From positions 1,736,001 through 1,800,000 of the forward strand of contig NZ_CP139972.1 in assembly GCF_034424315.1 (NCBI RefSeq): a stretch of 64,000 nt of DNA, given 5' to 3'. The translations under genes and the position numbers were made by a program. Shown here piece after piece: positions 28,942 to 36,400 of this stretch (positions are counted from its first letter, which is position 1; the number at the start of each line of letters is the position of its first letter). The DNA is from Chitinophaga sancti (lineage in GTDB: Bacteria > Bacteroidota > Bacteroidia > Chitinophagales > Chitinophagaceae). A model generated the notes under the pieces. The model saw only the letters and a list, made by a program, of their open reading frames with translations, was not told the DNA's origin and searched no databases.

Positions 28942-28980
28942 TGCGGCCAGGGCATAAGCCCTGGCCGCACGCTTTTATTT
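28942..28980 (+). terminator. suf operon terminator
   Basis: 12-bp stem TGCGGCCAGGGC / GCCCTGGCCGCA with loop ATAA, then CGCTTTTATTT. The end overlaps the 3' end of the opposing lipoprotein gene. Confidence 0.85.
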
Positions 28981-29607
28981 ATTCTCTCTTAATATATATC
29001 TCTGGTTGTCTTTTTTCAGCACATACTTTATCGTTTTCATATTTTTTTCTGCCAGGTACTTTCTCATTACATAAGGTTGCTGCACATAAAAAGTATCGTT
29101 CCCTCTATACCCCGGGATACTATCTTTATCTACATCCCCCGAAAAGATCCTCACTGGTTTGTGATCTATAAATGTTACCCCATACACACTGCCTACTGCA
29201 TCCGTTCCATCTGATTTCGTAAAACAAAACACTTCCGGATTTCCATCATTATCCAAATCACTGACCGTAGTACTCGTCACCTTCCCCTTCACATCATGCA
29301 ATACTGTACTATCCGTCATGGGCTTCGTTGTATCCCCTCTCAGGTCCTGCGAAGCAATCATAATGGTCCTTTCTGTTCCGTCTCCATTTACCCTCACTGC
29401 AAACCTATAATTCCCTTTTGTCATGATCCCCGATCCACGCAGCCCCTCTCCCATTTTAAACTGCTGCGCCTGGGTGGCAATCTCTTCACTGGAAGGCCCT
29501 GAGGGATTATTTTGCTTGTCCTCTTCCATCTGTCCAGGATTCTTTACCGGGTTATTACAAGCCATGGCAGCTATCATTACTGTTCCGAAAAGTTGTAGAG
29601 CTTTCAT
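28975..29607 (-). CDS. Predicted lipoprotein of unknown function
   Basis: 210 residues; no family recognised. N-terminal signal LFGTVMIAAMACNN with lipobox-like AAMAC. A Lys/Glu/Gln-rich linker follows. A beta-rich core includes GNYRFAVRVNGDGTERTIMI and a calcium-loop-like SDLDNDGNPEVF, which resembles the DxDxDG loop of FG-GAP/VCBS-type repeats. ATG 29607 is chosen because it gives the signal peptide; the longer frame starts at 29655 with residues that would precede it. Convergent with the suf operon. Confidence 0.75.
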   Translation of the reverse strand: MKALQLFGTVMIAAMACNNPVKNPGQMEEDKQNNPSGPSSEEIATQAQQFKMGEGLRGSGIMTKGNYRFAVRVNGDGTERTIMIASQDLRGDTTKPMTDSTVLHDVKGKVTSTTVSDLDNDGNPEVFCFTKSDGTDAVGSVYGVTFIDHKPVRIFSGDVDKDSIPGYRGNDTFYVQQPYVMRKYLAEKNMKTIKYVLKKDNQRYILRENK

Positions 29608-29669
29608 TCTTAGTTCTTTTATTATTATATGCAACAAGGAATATGCCATCACCATTCATCCATTAGCTG

Positions 29670-30274: not shown

Positions 30275-30483
30275 AAGTGGAAATTATTCATTCCTGCCTT
30301 ATTACCATTTATTACATCCCTTCATAGACGATGAAAGGATGTATAAGGCTACTTTTAACATCCCCATTTCTATCACCCTTGACATAGCATTGCTTTACTA
30401 ATGTATACATAGGCCCCGTTATGAATGATACGTCATCAGGGGCAGGCTTTTGTATACGCGAAAAAAAAAGATTGATACCTATC

Positions 30484-31590
30484 ATGCGCACAACTACTGT
30501 GATATTGATGAGCATCGCCCTGGGGGGATGCATTACCAAAGGAGAAAAAACGAATTCAACAGATAACCTGAATACTTATCCTGTAGTGCAGCTGGCACTT
30601 ACAGACACCATATTACACAAGAACTACGTAGCTGACATCGAGGCTGTACGGAATGTAGAGATCCGTGCCCGGGTCAACGGTTTCCTCAATAAAATCTACG
30701 TAGACGAGGGGCAACAGGTACAACAGGGACAATTGCTCTTTAGTCTCAATGACGAAGAGTTCAGAGCTGAACTGGCCCGTGCAAATGCAGCACTCAGCAG
30801 CGCGATTGCCGATGCAAAGACCGCCCAGCTGGAACAACAGCGGGTACAATTGCTGGTGGATAAAAAAATAATTGCCAAAACAGAACTGGAAGTAGCTGCT
30901 GCAAAAGTGGCCGCTGCAAATGCCAAAATAGATGAGGCCCGCAGCGCAGCCAGCAATGCCGCTACCCGGCTGTCTTATACTTCTATCCGTGCACCCTTCA
31001 CCGGTTATATCGACAGGATCCCTTCAAAGACCGGAAGCCTCATCGCGGAAGGTTCTTTGCTGACCTCTGTTTCAGACATCCAGGATATCTATGCCTACTT
31101 CAATGTTTCTGAAACTGAATACCTGCAGCATAGCCGTAATAAAGCGGAAAATCAAAATGCGGAAGTGAAACTCGTACTGGCTGATGGTACCCTCTACCCA
31201 CATACCGGTAAGATCGAAACCATCGAAAGTGAATTTGAAGAAAGTACGGGGTCCATTGCTTTCAGGGCGAAGTTTCCAAATCCGAAAGCTTTGCTGAAAC
31301 ATGGCGCCAGTGGCAAAATACAACTCGCTGCTGACCTGGATAGCACCATGCTGCTTCCACAGAAAGCTGTATTCGAAATGCAGGATAAAAACTATGTGTT
31401 CCTGCTGGATGCAAACAATCATGTAAAGATGAAAAGCTTTAGCCCGGGTCCAAGACTGAACAACTGTTATATCGTACAGGCAGGTCTGAAGCCAGGAGAC
31501 CGCGTGGTATACGAAGGTGTACGCAATCTCAGGGAGGGTATGCAGATCAATCCGGCGCCGGTATCGCTGGATAGTATCAGGGCGCTGTAA
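30484..31590 (+). CDS. RND efflux periplasmic adaptor (membrane-fusion protein)
   Basis: 368 residues. Lipoprotein signal VILMSIALGGC. Biotinyl/lipoyl-like halves flank a long alpha-hairpin: EIRARVNGFLNKIYVDEGQQ before, and the coiled region from ELARANAALSSAIADAKTAQ to ARSAASNAATRL. Then LSYTSIRAPFTGYIDR, the beta-barrel and the membrane-proximal domain. This is the AcrA/MexA family. It bridges the RND pump and outer-membrane channel, both encoded in the single next gene. ATG 30484 is chosen for the signal peptide. Confidence 0.93.
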   Translation: MRTTTVILMSIALGGCITKGEKTNSTDNLNTYPVVQLALTDTILHKNYVADIEAVRNVEIRARVNGFLNKIYVDEGQQVQQGQLLFSLNDEEFRAELARANAALSSAIADAKTAQLEQQRVQLLVDKKIIAKTELEVAAAKVAAANAKIDEARSAASNAATRLSYTSIRAPFTGYIDRIPSKTGSLIAEGSLLTSVSDIQDIYAYFNVSETEYLQHSRNKAENQNAEVKLVLADGTLYPHTGKIETIESEFEESTGSIAFRAKFPNPKALLKHGASGKIQLAADLDSTMLLPQKAVFEMQDKNYVFLLDANNHVKMKSFSPGPRLNNCYIVQAGLKPGDRVVYEGVRNLREGMQINPAPVSLDSIRAL

Positions 31591-31759: not shown

Positions 31760-34700
31760 ATGTTTGATACTTTTATCAAGCGGCCCGTGTTGTCGCTCGT
31801 CATTTCATTACTCATAGTCCTCCTGGGCTTACTGGCCCTCTTTTCTCTGCCAGTGACCCAGTTCCCGGATATCGTTCCACCATCCGTGACCGTTACAGCC
31901 AAGTACACCGGTGCGAATGCGGAAGTATGTGCCAAAGCCGTGGCGACCCCGCTGGAGCGTGCCATTAACGGTGTGCCGGGTATGACCTACATGTCATCTG
32001 TATCCAGTAATACAGGTGTCACCCTTATCTCTGTTTCCTTTGCGGTAGGTACCGATCCTGACCAGGCCGCGGTAAACGTGCAGAACCGGGTGGCCACCAT
32101 CCTGGATGAATTGCCTGAAGAGGTGATCAAAGCCGGTGTGAGCACGGAAAAAGAAGTGAACAGTATGCTGCTCTACCTCAACATCATGAGTGAAGACAGC
32201 ACCCTCAATGAAAAATTCATTTATAATTTTGCAGACATCAACGTACTACAGGAACTGAAAAGAATTGACGGCGTGGGCTTTGCAGAGATCATGGGTGCCA
32301 AGGAATACGCCATGCGCGTATGGCTGAAACCTGACCGGATGCTGGCTTACAGCGTTTCGGCCGAGGACGTGGTGGAAGCGATCCGCAGGCAAAACATTGA
32401 AGCTGCCCCTGGTAAAACCGGTGAAGCTGCTGATAATGATCCCCAGGTATTACAATATGTATTGCGCTATACCGGCAAATTTTTTGAAGCTGAACAATAC
32501 CAAAATCTTATTGTAAGGGCGAATACAGATGGTTCTGTATTATTGCTGAAAGACATTGCCGACGTGGAATTCGGCGCACTGAGCTATGGCATGGTGTCTA
32601 AAACGGATGGCAAGCCTTCGGCCTCCATCATGCTGAAACAACGCCCCGGCTCCAATGCGCAGGATGTAATCGCCAATGTTAAAAAACGCATGGAGGAAAT
32701 GAAAGCGACGTCTTTCCCCCCGGGCATGACTTATAATTTTAACTACGACGTATCCCGCTTCCTGGACGCCTCTATTCACGAGGTATTGCGTACGCTGGTA
32801 GAAGCGTTTATACTCGTGTTCATCGTGGTATTCCTCTTTATCCAGGACTTCCGGTCTACGCTCATACCTGCGCTGGCAGTGCCTGTAGCCCTGATCGGCA
32901 CACTGGCTTTTATGCAGATGATGGGCTTCTCTATCAACCTGCTCACACTCTTTGCCCTGGTACTTGCCATTGGCATCGTCGTCGATAACGCCATTGTGGT
33001 CGTGGAAGCCGTCCATGTAAAAATGCACGAGCACCACATGGCTCCCTTACAGGCTACGCTGGCGGCTATGCGCGAAATCAGCGGGGCACTGGTGGCGATT
33101 ACATTGGTAATGAGTGCCGTGTTTGTACCGGTGGCATTCCTCTCCGGGCCTGTGGGCGTGTTCTACCGGCAGTTCTCGCTGACGCTGGCCATTGCCATCG
33201 TGATCTCCGGCATCAATGCTGTGACCCTCACGCCAGCCCTCTGTGCCATCATGCTGAAGAATCATCATACAGCAGGTAAGAAACGTACATGGCTACAAAA
33301 GTTCTTCGACAAGTTTAATTATAGATATAATCAAACGGAAAAGAAATACCAGCACCTGGTTGGATATATTGCAGGCAGGCGCATGATCACAATTGGGATG
33401 CTGGTGCTCTTTTTTATTGCCACATGGGGTGTGAGTGCCATCCTGCCCGGTGGCTTCATCCCTTCTGAAGACCAGGGCATGATCTATGTGAACGTGACAA
33501 CACCTGCAGGTGCCACCGTATCCAGAACGGAAGCGGTGCTGGATGATGTACAGAAAATAGCGGCGAACCTGAAGGAAACCGAATCTGTATCTACATTGGC
33601 GGGATATAGCCTGGTGAGTGAGGTAGCCGGCGCTTCGTATGGTATGGGGATGGTGAACCTGAAACCATGGGAAGAAAGAAAGCGTTCTGTGAAAGAGATC
33701 ATTGCACAACTGGAAAAGGATACACGAAATATCGGGGATGCAAGTATCGAGTTCTTCCCCCCTCCTACAGTTCCGGGTTTTGGTAACTCCAGTGGTTTTG
33801 AATTGCGTGTGTTGGATAAGAGTGGTACCGGCGATTTAAAGCAGACGGCGGATGTAACGAAGGCATTTATCAATGCATTGAAAGAAAGAAAAGAAATAGG
33901 GAGTGCATTTACCAGTTTTGACCCAGACTTTCCGCAGTATATGATCCATGTGGATCAGGCCATGGCAGCGAAGAAGGGCGTAAGTATTGATAATGCGATG
34001 AGCACTTTGCAAACCTTGCTGGGTAGCTATTATGCATCGAACTTCATTCGCTTTGGGCAGATGTACAAAGTGATGGTGCAGGCCTCACCACGTTACAGAA
34101 CCAAGCCGGAAGACATCCTGCATTTGTATGTGAAGAATGATAAAGGAGAGATGGTCGCGTATTCCAATTTCATCAAACTGGAAAGGGTATTTGGGCCGGA
34201 ACAGCTGACACGTTATAACATGTATACCGCGGCAATGATCAATGGTGATGCGGCACCGGGCTATAGTAGCGGAGATGCGATCAAAGCGATTGAGGAAGTA
34301 GCAAAGCAGCAATTGCCAAGAGGATTTAGTTATGAATGGAGTGGTATGACGAGAGAACAGATCCTGTCGGGTAACCAGGCGGTGTACATTTTTGCCATCG
34401 TATTGCTCTTTGTGTACTTATTGCTGGCAGCACAATATGAAAGTTTCCTATTGCCATTGCCGGTGATCTTATCCTTGCCGGCGGGGATTTTCGGGGCCTT
34501 CTTTACATTGAAGCTCGCGGGCCTGGAGAATAATATTTATGCGCAGGTGGCATTGGTGATGCTGGTTGGCTTGCTGGGTAAGAATGCGATCCTGATCGTA
34601 GAATTTGCGATCCTGAAACATAAGCAGGGAGCTACCGTGTTGGAAAGTGCCATGCAGGGTGCGGTATCCCGTTTACGCCCTATTCTTATGACATCATTTG

Positions 34701-36325
34701 CCTTCATTGCGGGTCTGATTCCCTTGTGTATCGCGAGTGGTGCGGGCGCCATGGGTAACAGGTCTATTGGTACTGCGGCAGCAGGTGGAATGTTGATAGG
34801 AACGGTGTTCGGGGTATTGGTGATCCCTGGATTGTATGTGTTGTTTGCCAGTATCGCGGAGAAGAGAAGGAAACCACATGAGGTGAAAGCGCATCATGTA
34901 GTCACGGTGCTGGTACTGGGATTGTTTATGAGTAGCTGTTATACGCCGAAAGCAGTGGAGTACCCGGATGCACCTGTGGTACCGGCGACATTTGATAGTG
35001 CGGCACATTCCGGGGTGAAAGATACAAGCGCCAGCACCCCGCTTAGTTACCGGCAGTTCTTTGCAGATCCTTATCTGCAGCAGCTATTGGATACTGCTTT
35101 GCATAATAATACGGATATCCGGCTGGCATTGCAAAGAGTAGAAATGACAAAGGCACAACTGATGGTAGCCGGCAAGGCCTGGTTACCTGCTGTGAATGCC
35201 GCTGTGGATGCGGGCGTAGAAAGGTATGGTGACTATACGATGAATGGCGTGGGTAACTATGATACCAACCTTTCTCCGAATATTGATAATAAGCAACGCA
35301 TTCCGGATCCGGTACCGAATTATTTTATTGGCTTGAAGAGTGCCTGGGAAATTGATCTGTGGGGGAAATTGAAGAATGGAAAGAGGGCGGCACAACAGCG
35401 AATGCTGGCCAGTGAGCAGGGTCGCAGACTGGTAAGCACGCAATTAATTGCAAATGTAGCAGGCCTGTATTACCAGTTACTTGCACTGGATAATGAAAGG
35501 TCTGTACTGGAAAGGAATATTGTTTTGCAGGAGACCGCATTAGCTACCGTGCGCATTCAGCAGGAAGCAGGAAGAGCTACATTGCTGGCAGTGCAACAGT
35601 TCCATGCGCAGTTACTGAATACACAGAGTTTAATGATGAGCATTCAACAGCAGGCCACCCGGTTGGAGAACCAGCTGAATGCCTTGCTGGGTAGATTTCC
35701 GCAGGCCATACCAAGGGATACATCTTTGCTGACAGCGGCATTGCCACCTGTTGCCAATGTGGGTATGCCGGCGACCTTGTTATCCCATCGCCCGGATATC
35801 CAGCAGGCAGCCCTGGAACTGGGTGCAGCGAAAGCGGATGTAGCAGCGGCAAAGGCCGCGTTCCTGCCCTCACTGAATATTAATCCTTATGTAGGTTTCA
35901 ATAGTTTTAAGGGGAATTTATTATTTAATACCGGCTCCGTGGCTTATGGCTTATTAGGCGGTATAACGGCACCGATCTTAAATAAGAAGCAGCTGGCAGC
36001 ACAATACCAGGTAAATTCTGCTTCGGCATTAAGTGCATTTTATAATTACAGGCAGCGGGTGATAGATGCTTACCAGGAAGTGATGACGGCATTGGCCCGG
36101 TTACATAATGGACAGGAGGCGTTCAGGCTGAAAGAGGCGGAAGTGATGATGCTGAAAGCCGGCGTATCGACAGCGAATGATCTGTATATAACTGGTTATG
36201 CGAATTACCTGGAAGTGATAATGGCGCAGCGGAGTGTGTTGGAAGCAGAGCTGGCGCTGGCGGATAGCAGAAGGGAATTGTTCTTAGGGTCGATAGAATT
36301 GTATCGCGCATTAGGAGGGATGTAG
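31760..36325 (+). CDS. RND efflux pump (HAE1) fused to NodT-type outer-membrane factor
   Basis: One uninterrupted 1521-codon frame. Residues 1 to ~1040 are a complete HAE1/AcrB-type pump: FIKRPVLSLVISLLIVLLGL, the proton-relay helix IGIVVDNAIVVVEAV (second Asp of the usual pair is Asn), and the relay Lys in GLLGKNAILIVEFA. Then a basic stretch EKRRKPHEVKAHH, a hydrophobic run VVTVLVLGLFMSS and Cys 1060. That is a standard lipoprotein signal inside the protein. Residues 1060-1521 are a NodT/TolC-like outer-membrane factor (YRQFFADPYLQQLLDTAL, SAWEIDLWGKLKNGKRAAQ, RPDIQQAALELGAAKADVAA). The adaptor gene lies 169 bp upstream. Confidence 0.93.
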   Translation: MFDTFIKRPVLSLVISLLIVLLGLLALFSLPVTQFPDIVPPSVTVTAKYTGANAEVCAKAVATPLERAINGVPGMTYMSSVSSNTGVTLISVSFAVGTDPDQAAVNVQNRVATILDELPEEVIKAGVSTEKEVNSMLLYLNIMSEDSTLNEKFIYNFADINVLQELKRIDGVGFAEIMGAKEYAMRVWLKPDRMLAYSVSAEDVVEAIRRQNIEAAPGKTGEAADNDPQVLQYVLRYTGKFFEAEQYQNLIVRANTDGSVLLLKDIADVEFGALSYGMVSKTDGKPSASIMLKQRPGSNAQDVIANVKKRMEEMKATSFPPGMTYNFNYDVSRFLDASIHEVLRTLVEAFILVFIVVFLFIQDFRSTLIPALAVPVALIGTLAFMQMMGFSINLLTLFALVLAIGIVVDNAIVVVEAVHVKMHEHHMAPLQATLAAMREISGALVAITLVMSAVFVPVAFLSGPVGVFYRQFSLTLAIAIVISGINAVTLTPALCAIMLKNHHTAGKKRTWLQKFFDKFNYRYNQTEKKYQHLVGYIAGRRMITIGMLVLFFIATWGVSAILPGGFIPSEDQGMIYVNVTTPAGATVSRTEAVLDDVQKIAANLKETESVSTLAGYSLVSEVAGASYGMGMVNLKPWEERKRSVKEIIAQLEKDTRNIGDASIEFFPPPTVPGFGNSSGFELRVLDKSGTGDLKQTADVTKAFINALKERKEIGSAFTSFDPDFPQYMIHVDQAMAAKKGVSIDNAMSTLQTLLGSYYASNFIRFGQMYKVMVQASPRYRTKPEDILHLYVKNDKGEMVAYSNFIKLERVFGPEQLTRYNMYTAAMINGDAAPGYSSGDAIKAIEEVAKQQLPRGFSYEWSGMTREQILSGNQAVYIFAIVLLFVYLLLAAQYESFLLPLPVILSLPAGIFGAFFTLKLAGLENNIYAQVALVMLVGLLGKNAILIVEFAILKHKQGATVLESAMQGAVSRLRPILMTSFAFIAGLIPLCIASGAGAMGNRSIGTAAAGGMLIGTVFGVLVIPGLYVLFASIAEKRRKPHEVKAHHVVTVLVLGLFMSSCYTPKAVEYPDAPVVPATFDSAAHSGVKDTSASTPLSYRQFFADPYLQQLLDTALHNNTDIRLALQRVEMTKAQLMVAGKAWLPAVNAAVDAGVERYGDYTMNGVGNYDTNLSPNIDNKQRIPDPVPNYFIGLKSAWEIDLWGKLKNGKRAAQQRMLASEQGRRLVSTQLIANVAGLYYQLLALDNERSVLERNIVLQETALATVRIQQEAGRATLLAVQQFHAQLLNTQSLMMSIQQQATRLENQLNALLGRFPQAIPRDTSLLTAALPPVANVGMPATLLSHRPDIQQAALELGAAKADVAAAKAAFLPSLNINPYVGFNSFKGNLLFNTGSVAYGLLGGITAPILNKKQLAAQYQVNSASALSAFYNYRQRVIDAYQEVMTALARLHNGQEAFRLKEAEVMMLKAGVSTANDLYITGYANYLEVIMAQRSVLEAELALADSRRELFLGSIELYRALGGM

Positions 36326-36366: not shown

Positions 36367-36400
36367 GCCCCCCATTTGCACTGGCAGGTGGGGGTTTTCC
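36367..36400 (+). terminator. Terminator of the RND efflux locus
   Basis: CCCCCATTTGC / GCAGGTGGGGG stem with two wobble pairs, loop ACTG, then TTTTCC. Confidence 0.75.

Follow-up and report, generated by a model that had tools for sequence, protein, structure and literature searches.

In a 64,000-nucleotide stretch of the Chitinophaga sancti genome (contig NZ_CP139972.1, positions 1,736,001 to 1,800,000, hereafter the window), we identified a single open reading frame that joins a resistance-nodulation-division (RND) efflux pump to a NodT-type outer-membrane channel through a segment resembling a lipoprotein signal. This gene likely encodes a polyprotein, with signal peptidase II as the enzyme that would cut it once it is made. 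Proposed in a preliminary description of the locus, this reading is the best supported of those considered, given a Cys that is present in 120/120 of the listed fusions within an otherwise unconserved linker, the repeated occurrence of the fusion, and the presence of genes for both Lgt and Lsp (signal peptidase II).

The frame starts with ATG, extends over 1521 codons without internal stop, and comprises the following elements in window coordinates:

31760..36325, + strand: polyprotein frame of RND pump and outer-membrane factor, 1521 aa, stop codon at 36323-36325
31760..34846, + strand: HAE1-type RND permease, residues 1-1029 (ACR_tran, TIGR00915, PDB relatives)
34847..34897, + strand: basic linker, residues 1030-1046, predicted to be cytoplasmic from its sequence
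34898..34930, + strand: hydrophobic run, residues 1047-1057, predicted internal signal sequence
34937..34939, + strand: lipobox Cys1060 (MSSC, 1057-1060), predicted Lgt/Lsp site from conservation among fusions
34937..36322, + strand: predicted mature NodT-type outer-membrane factor, residues 1060-1521 (TIGR01845, PDB relatives)

The pump part is covered by ACR_tran (Pfam) over residues 1-1029 with 1040 bits and by TIGR00915 (NCBIfam, HAE1-type permease) over residues 1-1045 with 1084 bits (cut-off 940), and displays sequence likeness to CmeB, MexB and AcrB in the PDB. The channel part is matched by TIGR01845 (outer_NodT) from residue 1052 to 1520, corresponding to model positions 2-459 of 460 (247 bits, cut-off 210), by OEP (Pfam) in two stretches, the best of them at 1106-1311, and, over nearly its whole length, by SilC, OprM and CusC (PDB). 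Between the two parts, residues 1030-1060 read ASIAEKRRKPHEVKAHHVVTVLVLGLFMSSC and match, as a pattern only, a signal peptidase II substrate with a positive n-region, a hydrophobic h-region and a [LVI][AST..][GAS]C box. Textbook signal peptides are N-terminal, and this is the position expected of a signal peptidase II substrate and of the NodT/OprM lipobox; the same elements are found here in an internal position, behind 1029 pump residues.

The succession of HAE1 pump, basic residues, hydrophobic run, Cys 1060 and NodT-type channel in a single 1521-codon frame, as first described, is borne out by the open frame and by the Pfam and NCBIfam models. No stop codon occurs near 34870, and the frame at 34860-34940 is equally open in L021, L022 and L038, the relatives closest to it. 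We give next to no credit to a sequencing error, an assembly artefact or a decaying gene pair as the source of the frame, the sole point in favour being one frameshifted relative (L204, left out of the counts): both the pump and the channel are complete, the same frame recurs across numerous genomes and records, with 1916 fusion-length hits (120 of them listed) and 54 fused rows in the pump tree, and sequencing error is ruled out by fused relatives in independent genomes. The fusion is no isolated case but belongs to a large set.

The conservation of the joint was examined through a protein search limited to the joint and the channel and to candidates of fusion length, which returned these 1916 hits, the 120 listed including the protein itself. 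Among the matches listed, the Cys column holds Cys in 120/120 fusions, preceded by Gly, Ser or Ala in 118/120, and it is the sole column conserved at 95% or more over residues 1030-1074. The linker leading to it varies, among these same 120 matches, from 22 to 61 aa with 3-10 Lys/Arg. At the DNA level, a lipobox-type Cys is present in 52/52 unique fused loci and is followed by Asp in 0/52. In E. coli, Asp after the lipoprotein Cys is the classical signal for retention in the inner membrane; it is absent from the 52 loci. By comparison, a hydrophobic run or a Cys was found in 0/80 scored pump tails of split relatives, i.e. 80 of 81 split loci (L163 not scored) after dropping the frameshifted L204 and L193, which has an 809-aa pump frame. 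The joint segment thus belongs with the channel. The hydrophobicity of the run is somewhat higher in fused (2.95) than in split (2.46) loci, but as these loci are non-independent nothing is drawn from this difference.

These features suggest the following sequence of events. A single precursor would be synthesized, its 12-helix pump inserting in the inner membrane with the C-terminus in the cytoplasm, where AcrB-type pumps end, and the basic linker would remain on the cytoplasmic side. The hydrophobic run would then act as an internal lipoprotein signal sequence routing the channel part to the periplasm, where Lgt would lipidate Cys1060 and Lsp would cut on its N-terminal side. The pump would thereby be set free from the NodT-type channel, which, anchored by its lipid, would move on to the outer membrane. 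Pump and channel would be supplied equally, provided that every chain is cut. The own genome, available as one 8.42 Mb contig, contains two Lgt matches and one Lsp match over cut-off. In known tripartite pumps, the pump and the channel are each trimers while the adaptor counts six; the two parts needed in equal number are the ones joined here, which would explain why the adaptor keeps its own gene.

Alternatively, the channel would be made separately from an internal start, with the fused chain as a by-product or minor form. The candidate codon at the window locus is the following:

34883..34885, + strand: in-frame GTG (Val1042), possible internal start

Located at -18 from the Cys and followed by one Lys, this GTG would yield a passable lipoprotein signal, and it is shared with L021, L022 and L038. 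Its retention in these three relatives says little, since GTG accounts for 42-54% of Val codons in the four genes (about half in the window gene). Defining a plausible start as an in-frame ATG, GTG or TTG that lies 14-40 codons upstream of the Cys and is followed by one or more Lys/Arg, we found one in 24/52 unique fused loci and none in 28/52; no such ATG occurs in 43/52, and 22/52 have no start codon whatever in that region (three duplicate fused loci were removed, 55 to 52). By contrast, 79/80 scored split channels start with ATG and one with GTG (L166, L188 and L204 not scored); there is thus no conserved internal start. The separate start envisaged in the preliminary description thus fails as a general explanation while staying available at the window locus, where two proteins share one open frame with an internal signal and a GTG. 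We regard separate initiation as unlikely, the more so as two other fusions of the same genome described below (L222 and L225) lack any in-frame ATG, GTG or TTG from the last pump helix to the hydrophobic run (a single TTG occurs there in L221).

The strongest argument for cutting comes from these other fusions. ACR_tran has 21 nearly full-length matches in the genome, out of 29 rows, and in 4 of these 21 the open frame contains the channel family as well: the window gene, the CusA/CzcA-type L221 and L222, and L225, a more distant third RND class. The last three carry TolC-type channels and no lipobox at the joint, which instead reads AKA/QD, LHA/QD and LHA/QS, respectively (slashes mark the predicted cut), resembling a signal peptidase I site with Gln next. 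That Gln follows a signal peptidase I site is the published Bacteroidetes Q-rule (PMC5837995). A search for CusA-type homologs of fusion length returned 7566 hits, 120 of them listed; among the matches listed, the joint has Ala in 114/120 and Gln in 117/120, and in 113/120 the gap from the Gln to the first channel helix motif is just 5 residues. With such a gap, an uncut chain would be unable to place its channel in the outer membrane, given the 21 nm between the membranes and the 10 nm reach of the channel (PMC4754349).

The cutting signal at the joint matches the class of the channel, a lipobox with NodT-type and A/Q with TolC-type. As both signals are found in separate fusions, each being the normal one for a stand-alone channel of its class, their function would be cutting rather than tethering. 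We consider it probable that RND pumps and channels of Bacteroidota have repeatedly been joined as precursors split by the export machinery, and that the type of channel decides which peptidase acts: Lsp where a NodT-type channel brings a lipobox, and signal peptidase I, following the Q-rule, where the channel is TolC-type. The same genome also contains, at G000:C1:4718846-4722679, a perhaps broken RND pump that is spread over two open frames, of 650 and 433 aa, and adjoins a channel gene.

Several points weigh against cleavage by signal peptidase II at the window locus. The topology, the cleavage and the 1:1 synthesis are predictions from sequence, and the GTG offers a start of its own. In addition, most relatives are unfused, indicating that the fusion is not required for function: a family survey found matches in 83/195 genomes with a fused open frame in only 2 of the rows listed (own genome and G041), and a class survey found matches in 118/395 genomes with 7 fused rows. 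Finally, 47 residues separate the Cys from the first channel helix in the window protein, i.e. about 16 nm when fully stretched, so that chain length alone cannot exclude a window protein left uncut, with pump and channel covalently joined across the envelope. According to PMC4754349, the intermembrane distance is 21 nm and the channel extends 10 nm into the periplasm. Fully stretched, such a spacer could just bridge the distance. The open frame as such also favours a lasting link. Against this, an uncut protein offers no reason for a lipobox Cys in 120/120 listed fusions despite a variable linker, the CusA-type fusions leave only about 5 residues from the cut site to the channel, and closely related split versions occur within the genus. 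We therefore hold an uncut, envelope-spanning protein to be highly improbable, and retain cleavage before Cys1060.

Fused and split forms coexist among close relatives. Within Chitinophaga, 51 pumps with at least 74% identity, from 60 genomes, comprise 19 fused and 32 split loci, one of the latter (L070) falling outside the genus group on the tree; this delivers the count of fusions against split genes called for at the outset, together with a scan of named genomes in which 29/80 loci are fused. The fused named loci belong to Chitinophaga, other Chitinophagaceae, Olivibacter, Parapedobacter and Sphingobacterium, and the split ones include Mucilaginibacter, Dyadobacter and Hymenobacter. The pump of L141, from Chitinophaga tropicalis, is identical to that of L023 in G041, a genome of the same genus as the window. 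In the split loci of the genus, the channel is out of the pump frame in 32/32, many with a stop/start overlap of a few bases (ATGAATAA), and in the named split loci it is in the pump frame in 35/49. On the arrangement of their frames, split relatives are already near fusion, through overlapping stop and start or through a shared frame. Two split relatives lying among the Bacteroidota pumps belong to Pseudomonadota (L190, Methylomonas, and L199, Methylobacter), perhaps through gene transfer. A different HAE1 paralog in the Chitinophaga genome G008 (L217) is also fused to a channel, with an SSC lipobox at the joint.

A pump tree of 135 rows (54 fused and 81 split, without L204 and L193), from which the joint and the channel were left out, displays at least five changes between the fused and split states, and a 35-row tree under a better model displays five. 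Counting starred branches alone, five changes are unavoidable on the FastTree tree and four on the smaller IQ-TREE tree, and grouping all fusions in one clade was rejected on the 35-row tree (p-AU 0.0019). These trees, which do not distinguish gain from loss of the fusion, suggest that fusions arose more than once. A single ancient fusion followed by many later losses was rejected since one clade of all fusions fails, and a mobile origin was rejected as megablast of the open reading frame gave no plasmid match.

The pump itself carries a distinctive trait. The proton relay of AcrB, formed by D407 and D408 in helix 4 and K940 in helix 10, has its lysine counterpart in the window pump (Lys941), but the helix 4 pair is Asp-Asn (D409, N410) instead of Asp-Asp, residues 407-410 reading V-V-D-N (window 32978-32989). 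Asn occupies this position in 106/112 scored fusions, and in 52/54 fused and 74/81 split relatives; among seven paralogs examined in the own genome, it is present in L002 and replaced by Asp in six. Found in fused and split relatives alike, the Asn is a trait of the family and not of the fusion. This subfamily may have a proton relay unlike that of AcrB, the Asp-Asn pair speaking against an identical one. The HAE1 placement comes solely from the curated model.

Around the polyprotein gene, the window contains the third pump component and a possible terminator:

30421..31590, + strand: gene of the RND periplasmic adaptor, third pump component, upstream (TIGR01730)
36369..36394, + strand: terminator-like hairpin with a T-rich stretch after it, beyond the 3' end of the open reading frame (consensus match only)

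A small predicted lipoprotein starting with MIAAMAC is encoded at 28975-29655 on the - strand, and is unrelated to the pump as far as examined.

The pump, channel and adaptor families are already known. We found no account of an RND-channel polyprotein in the open-access library searched, although one may have been published elsewhere. Databases list the two-domain architecture, yet name only the permease ("efflux RND transporter permease subunit" or "CusA/CzcA family heavy metal efflux RND transporter"). Thousands of permease-named proteins may consequently contain an outer-membrane channel that their annotation misses (the two sets of fusion-length hits number 1916 and 7566, with 120 examined in each), which matters for channel counts and for the interpretation of proteomics. 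If cutting does occur at these joints, both Lgt/Lsp and signal peptidase I would accept, as routine substrates, signals located behind a 12-helix protein, and the supply of pump and channel would be fixed at 1:1 by translation in a system built from three of each.

Compared with documented systems, the window system shares with MexAB-OprM, AcrAB-TolC and CmeABC the association of a pump, a NodT/OprM-type lipoprotein channel and an adaptor (family models and PDB relatives), but these have separate pump and channel genes where the window has one open reading frame with an internal lipobox. The split orthologs of the genus (e.g. L039-L051) are closer still, with pumps about 81-84% identical, the same channel family and the same gene order; they differ by their separate open reading frames, many of which overlap, the pump stop lying over the channel start, so that translational coupling, and not joining, is probable for them. 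The Bacteroidota fusions of CusA/CzcA-type RND pumps with TolC (here L221 and L222) likewise consist of one open reading frame with a signal-peptide-like joint, but carry a TolC-type channel and, in place of a lipobox, an A/Q joint that would be a signal peptidase I site by the Q-rule (PMC5837995).

Beyond efflux pumps, the nearest precedent appears to be FbcH, the cytochrome b/c1 precursor of Bradyrhizobium. It belongs to a respiratory complex, is processed by signal peptidase I, and involves neither a lipobox nor an outer-membrane protein, but in it a multi-helix membrane protein and its secreted partner likewise arise as a single chain, which is cleaved at an internal signal sequence, as predicted for the window gene.

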